Origin: Gemmata massiliana
GTDB lineage: Bacteria; Planctomycetota; Planctomycetia; Gemmatales; Gemmataceae
Reading direction: 5' to 3'
DNA length: 52,469 nt
Assembly (NCBI GenBank): GCA_000531095.1
Contig: HG799462.1
Span: 1,103,965 to 1,156,433 of the forward strand
Shown here: in pieces, positions 24,653-43,458 of the stretch
Layout: each line of letters begins with the position of its first letter
Numbering within the stretch: position 1 is the first letter of the stretch
Program-made: the position numbers and the translations under genes
Notes under the pieces: model-generated
Seen by the model: only the letters and a program-made list of their open reading frames with translations
Database searches by the model: none
Told to the model about the DNA's origin: nothing

Positions 24653-24747
24653 CCGGTGGTGGTTGATGAGTGCGGACCGGGGCGGCCAAACCCGCTCCGG
24701 TCGTTACTTGGCGCCCGGCACTCGTCACGCACCATTTTGGGTGTTCC

Positions 24748-27378
24748 ATGTCCGATTGCCCCGATGACACCGATCTGGCCGGGTTCCTGAACGACTCGCT
24801 CGGGGCCGACCGGCTCGCGCTCGTGTCCGGGCACGTGGACGGGTGCTCGGACTGCCAGGGCCGGCTCGACCGACTGACCGAACAGGCGAGCGGGGCCGTG
24901 GCTCGGTACAAGGAATTATCTTCCGGGGTGCTCCCAGACGCGCGCTCGGGCGGGGTCGCTTCGACGCCAGAAGACGCCACGCTGATCGTGGGCGGGAAGC
25001 CGGCGGCCCCGGTGTTCGTCGGGCTGCCGCGGGTACCCGGGTTCGAGGTGCTCCGGGAAATCGGGCGCGGCGGGATGGGGATCGTGTACAAGGCCCGGCA
25101 CCGGCGCCTGAACCGGCTCGTCGCGCTCAAAATGATCCTGGCCGGCGCCTCGGCCGACTCGCGCGTCGTTCAGCGGTTCCTGTTCGAGGGCGAGGTGCTC
25201 GCCCGCGCCCAGCATCCGCAAGTCGTTCAGGTGTTCGAGGTGGACACCTACGACGGACCGAACCACGTCCCGGTTCCCTATCTCGCGATGGAACTGCTGG
25301 AGGGCGGGTCACTCAGCCGCAAGCTTCGCGCGACCAACGACGGCACGGCCCCGCGCCTCACCCCGCGCGAAGCGGCCGAACTCATTGAGGGGATCACGCG
25401 AGCCGTTCACGCCGCGCACCTCCAGGGCATCATCCACCGCGACCTCAAGCCGGGCAACATCCTCTTCGCGAGCGCGGACTTCGGCACCCCGAACCCGGAC
25501 CTGAAGCCGGGCAGCGGGGACAAAAAAACGGTCGCCGCGTCCGGGGCGTCGCGCACCACGCTGCGCACCCCGAACCTCGCGCTCCCTAAAGTCACGGACT
25601 TCGGGCTCGCGAAGTTCACCCAAGAGTCCGGCGCGGACCTGACGCAGACCGGACAGATCGTCGGCACCCCGCACTACATGGCGCCGGAACAGGCGGCCGG
25701 GGACCGGCGCATCGGCCCCGCGGTGGACGTGTACGCGCTGGGAGCGATCCTGTTCGAGTGCCTCGCCGGGCGGCCCCCGTTTATCGGCACCGAGCCACTG
25801 AGCGTGATGATGAAGGTGGTGAACGAGCTGCCGCCGGACGTGCGATCGTTCCGCCCGGAGGTGCCACGCGACCTCGCCGCGGTCACGATGAAGTGCCTGG
25901 CGAAAGACCCGGCCCGGCGCTACGTCAGTGCCGAGGCCCTCGCGGACGACCTGCGCCGGTTCCTCGACGACCGCCCCACCAAGGCGCGCCCGGTCACCAA
26001 CTTCGAGCGCCTCTGGCTCTCCATCAAGCGGAACCCGTCCGTCGCGGGGCTGCTGACCCTACTCGCGATCGTGCTGTGTACCGCGTTCGTCACGTTCGGT
26101 TCGATGTGGGCACGCGCGGAAGAAAAGGCCCGGCGGGAAGAGAGTCTGAAACAGTTAGCTGAGGGCTCGACCATTCGCGCCAAGGACGCGATGACGGAGA
26201 CTCAGAAGCGGGAAGCGCAACTCGTCTTCCGCCGGGCCGTGAACTGGTGCGAAGAGGGGCGCCTGGACGAGGGGTTGGAACTGTTCGTGCGGGCCGCGGA
26301 ACTGGCCGTGGAACTCGGCGACGAGAACCTGGAGCGCGTCGTCCGGATCAACCTCGCCGCCTGGGAGCGCGACCTCCCGCTCCCGCGGCGCCGGTTCCCG
26401 CACACCGAGCAACCGCGTCTGGCCGCGTTCCACCCCGACGGCAAGCACATCGTAACCGCCGGGCGGTCGCGCGAACTGTACCTCTGGGACATTACCTCGC
26501 GGAAACGGGTACGAACCTACAAACCCACACTCCAACTCAGGCGAACGGCCCTCGGCTTCGCGCCCAAGCTCCTCACGTACTGGACCGTGGCCATCAGCCC
26601 CGACGGGCGGACGATCGCGGCCGGCGGAACGGATGCGTCCCTTACACTGTGGGAAACGAATCTGGACCGCCAGACCGAGGAAGTGGCCCCGATCGGCACG
26701 TTCGACGCGGACGACGCGGACGTGCGCAAGATCCAGGGCAACGACCTGAGCCTGTGGACGATGGCATTTTCGACCGACCGGGTGCTCTGGACCAGCGACG
26801 CGGCGAACGGAGTGAGGCGCTGGGACATCACGAATCCGCGCGCGCCCGTGACCAAGCGGTTCATCCCTAAATCCGGAGCGAACGGGGCGACGCTGCAAAT
26901 CATGGTCGCGTCGCCCGATGGCCAGAAATTGTACACGGGGGACCGCGCCGGGTGGGTGCGCGGGTGGGACGGAACCACGGGTGCGGAACTGGGCCGGTGG
27001 CCCACCAAGGGGTGGATCACCGACATCGCCCTGTCCCCGGACGGTCGGCGCGTGGCCGTGACCGGCCCGAACGGGTTCGTGCGCGTTCTCGACCTCGGGA
27101 CCGGCAAAGAGGTTCTCGAACTCAGCCTCGCGGGGGCCTACGGCAACGGGGTCGCGTTCACGCAGAAGCAACCGTTCCTGGTCGCGTCCGACGGGGACGG
27201 GAACGTGCGGTTCTGGCACCGCGACACCGGCCAGCCGATCGGCATCCCGCTCCGGTTCCACGGCGAGGTCATGCGGATGCGGTTCCGCCCGGGCACGGAC
27301 GAGTTCGCGGTCCCCGCGGGTAATTCCGTTTACCTGTGTACCGCACCGGACCCGCCGTGCGACCTGATCTCCGCATAA
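24748..27378 (+). CDS. Zinc-finger Ser/Thr kinase with WD40 repeats, 5' part
   Basis: From ATG 24748 the protein starts with an HxxxCxxC motif (His 29, Cys 33, Cys 36) like zinc-binding anti-sigma domains. A protein kinase domain follows at about 98-370, with GRGGMGIVYKA, the lysine in VALK, HRDLKPGN, DFGLAK and GTPHYMAPEQA, all key residues intact. After a membrane helix (about 434-454, AGLLTLLAIVLCTAFVTFG) come WD40 repeats with LAAFHPDGKHIVT, ISPDGRTIAAGG and LSPDGRRVAVTG. The frame ends at TAA in a loxP-like sequence; the WD40 series continues in another frame to 28322. The sigma factor gene lies just upstream. Likely one protein of about 1180 residues originally. Confidence 0.88.
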   Translation: MSDCPDDTDLAGFLNDSLGADRLALVSGHVDGCSDCQGRLDRLTEQASGAVARYKELSSGVLPDARSGGVASTPEDATLIVGGKPAAPVFVGLPRVPGFEVLREIGRGGMGIVYKARHRRLNRLVALKMILAGASADSRVVQRFLFEGEVLARAQHPQVVQVFEVDTYDGPNHVPVPYLAMELLEGGSLSRKLRATNDGTAPRLTPREAAELIEGITRAVHAAHLQGIIHRDLKPGNILFASADFGTPNPDLKPGSGDKKTVAASGASRTTLRTPNLALPKVTDFGLAKFTQESGADLTQTGQIVGTPHYMAPEQAAGDRRIGPAVDVYALGAILFECLAGRPPFIGTEPLSVMMKVVNELPPDVRSFRPEVPRDLAAVTMKCLAKDPARRYVSAEALADDLRRFLDDRPTKARPVTNFERLWLSIKRNPSVAGLLTLLAIVLCTAFVTFGSMWARAEEKARREESLKQLAEGSTIRAKDAMTETQKREAQLVFRRAVNWCEEGRLDEGLELFVRAAELAVELGDENLERVVRINLAAWERDLPLPRRRFPHTEQPRLAAFHPDGKHIVTAGRSRELYLWDITSRKRVRTYKPTLQLRRTALGFAPKLLTYWTVAISPDGRTIAAGGTDASLTLWETNLDRQTEEVAPIGTFDADDADVRKIQGNDLSLWTMAFSTDRVLWTSDAANGVRRWDITNPRAPVTKRFIPKSGANGATLQIMVASPDGQKLYTGDRAGWVRGWDGTTGAELGRWPTKGWITDIALSPDGRRVAVTGPNGFVRVLDLGTGKEVLELSLAGAYGNGVAFTQKQPFLVASDGDGNVRFWHRDTGQPIGIPLRFHGEVMRMRFRPGTDEFAVPAGNSVYLCTAPDPPCDLISA

Positions 27379-28322
27379 CTTCGTATAGCATACATTGGCT
27401 GGACTTTTCACCCACCGGGGACCGGCTCGCGGTGGCCGACGACCGGACGTTCGACCTGTTCGACCCGCGCACCCGCAAGCGCGTTCCGATCGCGCTCGAC
27501 CTCTACAACGACGCGCTCACGGTCCGGTTCGATGCGAGTGCCGAGCGCGCGCGCGTCTTCCAGGGAACGCGCGACGGGCTCGACTGGTTCGCGGTCCCCA
27601 ACGGGAAGAAGGTCGAACCCGTCCCGTCGCTCGGTTTGGGCCGGGTCCACCGACTGGAGCCCCTGCGCGACGGCACGGCGCTCTTCGTCATGGGTTCGAC
27701 GCTCGTCGCGCGGTACGATGCGGCCACGCTCAAAGCGTCCAAGTCCCGGCCACCGACCCAAGCGCTCCCGGCGGGGGTGGAACTGAGCGCGATCGCCGCT
27801 CGGCCGGACGGCAGAGAAGTATTCGTCGCGTTCGGGGACAGTGCCGCCGTCCTGGAGGGCGACGCGCTGACGCCGCTCCGCGAGTGGGCCATCGGCGACG
27901 AGGTACTCGACGCCCGTTACACCCCGACCGGAGACAAGATCCTGCTCGCCATGCGCTCGAACGCGGCCGAACTGCGCGACGCACAAACCGGTGCCCGGGT
28001 GGGGCCGCAAATGCCACACGAGCGAGCGGTCACAGGGGTCGCGATCAGCCCGAACGGGGCGCTGCTGGTGACCGCCAGCCGCGACGGGACCGCCCGGTTC
28101 TGGGACGCGGCCACCAACTTGCCGCTCGGCACGCCGTTGCGCCACGCGGGACCGGTCACGCACGTCGCGTTCGCCCCCGACGGCGGACACATCGCCACCG
28201 GCACCGGGACCGGTCACGTGACGCTCTGGGACATTCCTCCCAAGCCGCGGAAGGGCACGCTGGAAGAACTGCGCGAGACGTTCGGCAAGAAAGAACACAG
28301 GGAAAAGGCGCCCGCGCAATGA
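27336..28322 (+). pseudogene. Kinase/WD40 gene, 3' part out of frame
   Basis: Native sequence begins at about 27397 (WLDFSPTGDRLAVADD) and continues with WD40 repeats including VAISPNGALLVTASRDGTARFWD and VAFAPDGGHIATGTGTGHVTLWD, with a charged tail. It has no kinase domain, signal peptide or believable start of its own; the open frame opens at a GTG inside the upstream gene. It is best read as the C-terminal half of the gene starting at 24748, displaced by the loxP-like insertion. If so, the break may be an assembly error and the gene is intact in the organism. Confidence 0.85.
27375..27396 (+). other. 22 bp identical to part of the loxP site
   Basis: The bases are ATAACTTCGTATA (one full 13-bp loxP arm), then GCATACAT (the full 8-bp spacer), then T, the first base of the second arm. 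A match of this length is not expected by chance. It interrupts the kinase/WD40 gene; removing 23 bases (these plus one flanking base) rejoins the frame as ...DLIS-(A or G)-LDFSPTGD, a normal WD40 strand. A leftover mate-pair library linker, several of which carry loxP, is the simplest origin. With only one arm it would not be a working site. Confidence 0.9.
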
Positions 28323-28422: not shown

Positions 28423-29318
28423 CCGCTCCCTTGCCAGTAGTTTCAAGGGGTTGGATGTGCCGCATGGGAGTTCCTAAGTTCAAGGTTCTCAAGCACTTGA
28501 ACGGGAACCTCCCATGCGACGTGGTTATTCTACGATTACTCCGGCGGTGATCCATGCGTTGGCCCGGCGAACGTTGGCCCGGGCACTCGGTTGGCCCGAC
28601 TACAAGACGTCCATCACGGGCACCCAGTTGGTCGATCTGGTGCTGCTAATCGCGGGCACCACCCGCACCCTGTTCGCGGTGGTGACCCGGTACTTCCACT
28701 TCTCGCACGAGACCGCTCGGCAGGGGGTGTACGCGAACCTGGGCTCTCGGGACCAACTCACGGCCCGGCTGGTCGATGCCCTTCACCAGGTGGCGAGGCA
28801 CGTATATGTAGCAACGAAGTGATACGTGCGCCGTCGAGTACGATCGCCACGATGGACTGGGTTGACCGAGAAGACGCGCCGGTCCGTGTCCACCCGGGTG
28901 CTCGTGTGGCGCCGCCCGGGTGAATCGCACGCGCGGGTATATGCGTTCTCGGGTTGGGGTGATGCGGGGCCGTATCCGAGGCGAAGCGCGCATGGCTCGG
29001 GCGGCGCCGGTACCGGGAGCGGTTCGGGATCGAAACGAGTTACCGGCAGAAGAACCAGGCCCGCGGGTGGACCACCAGCACTAACCCCGAGTACCGGTTG
29101 TTACTGGAGGGTGTGGCGCTGGTGTTGCGCCAGGTGTGGGTGTGCTTGGCACTCCAAATCGCACGCGCCCAGAACCGGAATGCGTGGGTGCGCGAACTCC
29201 CGTTGGTCGAGATGCTCGACTGGCTCACACTACGGATCCGCTCGCGATACCCACGCACACGATGTATCACACTGACCCACAATACACTTACACACGCGGC
29301 AGCGCCTTGAAACTACTG
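28423..29318 (+). mobile_element. Decayed IS4-like element, copy 2
   Basis: The left end (28423-28448, CCGCTCCCTTGCCAGTAG then TTTCAAGG) matches copy 1 at 12110. The right end keeps only CCTTGAAACTACTG (29305-29318); the outer bases differ from copy 1. The element is about 450 bp shorter than copy 1 because of an internal deletion at about 28800. Same orientation as copy 1. Confidence 0.85.
28514..29310 (+). pseudogene. Broken IS4-like transposase, copy 2
   Basis: The first 95 codons (MRRGYSTITPAVIHALARRT...) are intact up to VDALHQVA, then a deletion removes the part with the first catalytic Asp. The remainder is in other frames: VYAFSGWGDAG, RYRERFGIETSYRQK-like sequence, GWTTSTNPEYRLLLEGVALV and RELPLVEMLDWLTLRIRSRYP. 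It retains 26 bp missing from copy 1, so the two copies decayed independently. Confidence 0.85.
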
Positions 29319-43331: not shown

Positions 43332-43458
43332 CCGCTCGTCTTCTGCTCGACCGAGCCATTCGATTCGGCACAGCGCTTGCATTACTTCGTATCGGCCAGT
43401 CACGGACGGCCGAACCAGGAATCATCGTCCCATTTCACTCCGCTGAGGAGATACCGAT

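Follow-up and report, generated by a model that had tools for sequence, protein, structure and literature searches.

An untrimmed loxP linker remnant probably overwrites part of a kinase/WD40 gene in the draft genome of Gemmata massiliana

A stretch of 22 bases at positions 27375–27396 of the window (the whole DNA stretch analysed, 52 469 nt of the Gemmata massiliana draft, contig HG799462.1, positions 1 103 965–1 156 433 of the forward strand) is a laboratory artefact and not biology. It is almost certainly (probability about 0.97) a piece of loxP linker left untrimmed from a Cre/loxP mate-pair library, and it has overwritten genome sequence; the library was most likely the 454 Titanium 3-kb paired-end one made for strain IIL30. 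The first-pass annotation had proposed an untrimmed mate-pair linker of the 454 Titanium type; whole-genome evidence supports this, with the correction that the linker replaces genome bases and is not added to them.

Positions 27375–27396 (forward strand) comprise one full loxP arm (13 nt), the full spacer (8 nt) and a single base of the other arm, so that the partial loxP site described earlier is read directly from the window. The remnant is identical with positions 5–26 of the 42-nt linker and truncated at both outer ends, without the CGTA of one and the ACGA of the other. The exact arm occurs once in the window, and a second match with up to two mismatches was found at 43381 only; it was rejected because the whole-linker scan misses it and it lies outside any longer linker match. 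Two or more arm matches at this tolerance were obtained in one of 100 shuffles of the window. Scanning the window by local alignment with the 42-nt linker gave one piece (score 22) and a chance-like match at 28814 (score 10), and no match scoring 10 or more was obtained with the reversed window. About 1.3e-7 random exact linker 22-mers are expected in such a window.

Both 42-nt linker strings are given as mate-pair adapters in one source (PMC5199103) and one of the two in another (PMC5710592), and 454 Titanium paired-end libraries are described as using 42-bp loxP linkers in a third (PMC6992861), which bears out the earlier statement that such linkers are used in 454 Titanium mate-pair methods. 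According to its genome report, the IIL30 draft was built from a 3-kb paired-end library (454 Titanium) and an XL+ shotgun library with Newbler, the Roche assembler (90% identity, 40-bp overlap), to give 22 scaffolds and 9.249 Mb at 22.4-fold coverage (PMC4672568). The window remnant is a part of this type of linker and other pieces in the same assembly reach the full printed 42-nt string; the difference is that a part alone is present here, in place of genome bases rather than between two mates.

The remnant falsely splits a gene whose product combines a protein kinase domain with WD40 repeats. The left part (24670–27378, forward strand, start codon putative) encodes the kinase domain and WD40 repeats, and its frame ends at a stop codon at 27376–27378, within the remnant. 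The right part (27397–28322, forward strand) encodes further WD40 repeats and stays open, in a different frame, up to 28322; Pfam matches and the frames thus agree with the earlier description of WD40 repeats on both sides in different frames. An ORF called mechanically at 27336–28322 starts upstream in the wrong frame and runs through the linker. The interval between the halves in the window is 23 nt, 21 of them linker, with the 22nd linker base forming the final base of the left part.

For comparison, the site was aligned with relatives of the genus. The complete single-contig relative G008 shares 94% identity with the 800 bases that surround the site, with one gap base, and has both halves in a single open frame of 1203 aa; when the flanks were aligned one by one, the 22-nt piece stood opposite 23 other bases. 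Both gene halves were matched in 11 of 18 relatives, and the site was compared in 10 of these, G012 being left out because its copy is interrupted by several stops; among the 10, G018 carries a single TGA in the right half. All 10 have 21, 24 or 27 nt in frame between the halves, corresponding to 7–9 residues, of which the last two ahead of the following strand are RG each time. The apparent split of the gene is therefore read as false, as the first-pass annotation had proposed, both halves lying in one frame in G008; judged from its relatives, the organism probably has an intact kinase/WD40 gene. In G012, an assembly of three contigs (L077, L100), the kinase/WD40 copy with several internal stops is possibly a true pseudogene.

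These comparisons also bear on whether a linker of 22–23 bases could simply have been inserted into an otherwise complete gene. The frame arithmetic would allow it, since removal of 23 bases unites the left and right frames, and one piece elsewhere in the assembly (L045) looks inserted, with 21 nt against 1 in G008. Against this stand the 23 other bases of G008 at the window site and the 7–9 residues found there in all 10 relatives, and simple insertion was rejected for this site on that comparison, as very unlikely. The same data qualify the earlier claim that a normal WD40 strand returns once 23 bases are deleted: the frames would indeed come together, but the strand would be too short, with 7–8 codons missing from the gene. 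By alignment with relatives, the linker at the window site is thus read as standing in place of genome sequence. With 22 linker bases for about 23 genome bases, the exchange would shift the frame and introduce the stop.

Overwriting was then examined across the assembly by placing the flanks of the pieces on stretches of G008 with one query, an earlier placement by synteny on 20 G008 stretches, each 20 kb long, having located few sites. Both flanks were colinear for 20 pieces, and 10 of these were clean, defined as at most 5 unaligned bases in all at the joint; the 10 other colinear sites (gaps of −184 to 74) were left out. At the clean sites the lengths of linker piece and hidden stretch (nt) were 38/37, 22/23, 41/22, 19/20, 42/41, 37/30, 39/36, 41/41, 37/39 and 21/1, a difference of at most 3 nt at seven of the 10. 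Replacement was unequal at the other three (41 for 22, 37 for 30 and 21 for 1), which speak against the overwriting account but may be joins through linker or true length differences between the genomes. At nine of the 10 clean sites the open frame through the site, compared from stop to stop on either strand inside the stretches compared, was shorter in the own genome than in G008, L024 being the exception. Single changes within some linkers were compared by eye with the relative's base in register, and the few sites with data gave no support for their being the same base.

Linker sequence is widespread in this assembly (9 269 192 bases in 22 contigs, the window lying on contig C1). The search of the whole assembly for further arm fragments, suggested in the first-pass annotation, returned 96 exact arms (reversed-pattern control, 0), compared with one exact arm in total among 58 relatives (control, 2). 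With up to three mismatches allowed, the full-site core was matched 56 times, including one place that was matched on both strands, against no match in the control. Local alignment within 66 stretches around the matches yielded 72 pieces, of which 71 scored 15 or more; this is a lower bound, as two weaker full-site-core places (C3 and C14) lie outside the 66 stretches. The 71 pieces occur in both orientations and have ragged ends (26 start/end combinations); 23 span all 42 linker positions, nine of them unchanged, and most exact full loxP copies carry CGTA, ACGA or both as outer bases. An N run lies within 150 nt of 24 of the 71 pieces, against 41 of 3574 background positions (1.1%) in the same stretches. 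One linker that covers all 42 positions and has an additional base, at C1 1103787–1103829 (L016 1980–2022), ends 135 bases upstream of the window, and the intervening N run stops exactly at the window edge. Identity with a piece of the printed linker, linker-type outer bases on full copies, and many scattered ragged copies near scaffold gaps with a single arm in the relatives are the features observed for an untrimmed linker.

Several N-run lengths recur in the own stretches L009–L074 (58 six times, 24 and 114 three times each, and 271, 307 and 475 twice each). Direct repeats across the piece were found at three of the 71 (L026, L050 and L052), with an inverted repeat at L050, and were rejected as a general sign of misjoins for being so few. 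At L050 the linker piece lies between the copies of a direct repeat, about 45 nt long, which suggests a misjoin or a local duplication.

Two regularities were counted against the artefact account. A cut after linker position 37 recurs in 13 pieces, and GC precedes 12 of the 16 own-genome pieces starting at linker position 5, the remaining four being preceded by N then C (twice), TG and AC. From this second pattern the GC at 27373–27374 (forward strand), immediately before the window remnant, may be linker-derived and part of it; G008 also has GC at the corresponding place, and the two bases are possibly genome. Among the public-genome matches listed, GC precedes at least 11 exact loxP sites, for example in Sediminibacterium and Actinobacillus drafts.

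The flanks of the exact sites also distinguish a linker from natural loxP sites, such as a P1-like prophage or plasmid would carry and the cell's own Cre recombinase would use. The 34-nt core of the pieces is the natural loxP sequence, identical in arm and spacer to that of phage P1 and its relatives, and exact copies occur in viral contigs; the own genome moreover encodes three proteins distantly related to a P1-type Cre ORF (E 2e-16 to 5e-12). These are just 27–30% identical, and as the best matches obtained they mean that no close Cre was found in the own genome, whereas in the one viral contig examined a 343-aa ORF, presumably Cre, lies beside the loxP site. Of the 24 exact 34-nt sites in the own stretches, nine are preceded by CGTA and followed by ACGA and 13 have one of the two, so that at least one linker end is kept at 22; the two sites with neither were counted against the artefact account. 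By contrast, 68 of 74 exact sites in viral contigs have neither linker end (both ends at five, one end at one), and P1-type flanks were not what the own assembly shows. On these flanks, the raggedness of the pieces with their clustering at N runs, the single arm among 58 relatives and the lack of a close Cre, the natural-site explanation was rejected. It is extremely improbable, in keeping with the earlier judgement that a naturally acquired half-site is very unlikely.

LoxP scars are common in engineered strains, and engineering of the strain with loxP cassettes is another possible source. Against this stand the 71 pieces, partial or full and in either orientation, and at least nine of the 10 clean pieces cut a frame for which G008 has a longer counterpart. 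Engineering is untenable with pieces so numerous and so ragged, and it is extremely improbable. The published strain, moreover, is described as a hospital-water isolate in its report (PMC4672568).

Other genomes in the scanned public collection carry the linker, among the matches listed. For at least 130 exact loxP sites in public-genome loci among these matches, both linker ends were present at 102, one at 15 and neither at 10, with three at an edge. Among the matches listed (L103–L204), linker-type flanks were seen in Candidatus Paracaedibacter symbiosus PRA9, a Rickettsia MAG (Dallo3), Legionella tunisiensis LegM, Kitasatospora cheerisanensis and Litoribacter populi, and a P1-type flank at an exact loxP site in two Escherichia drafts. 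An Aeromicrobium contig (L177) and an Alicyclobacillus plasmid (L181) have the same eight bases on each side of an exact loxP, of neither linker nor P1 type, perhaps from a shared vector. Among the papers listed in a literature search for this kind of linker contamination, none appeared directly relevant.

The overwriting linker would have arisen as follows. In a Cre/loxP mate-pair library the loxP linker joins both ends of circularised fragments, and some paired-end reads would have ended in or just past the linker, so that they were not recognised as pairs and were left unsplit. Where such reads outnumbered true reads, the consensus would have followed the linker as far as the remnant extends and switched back to the true reads beyond it, with the linker thereby overwriting the genome in register. 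At the window site, 22 linker bases would have replaced about 23 genome bases in this way, with the frameshift and the stop as the outcome.

Remnants in this assembly probably overwrite in register for the most part, and adapter trimming would then produce small false deletions, here and possibly in other paired-end drafts with this linker; this generalisation is held with somewhat better than even confidence. Plain trimming of an overwriting linker would leave such deletions behind, and the correction from insertion to overwriting therefore matters for anyone cleaning this genome. For users of the draft there are at least 71 places with linker sequence, and any split gene, false frameshift or small false deletion found there should be masked and not interpreted.
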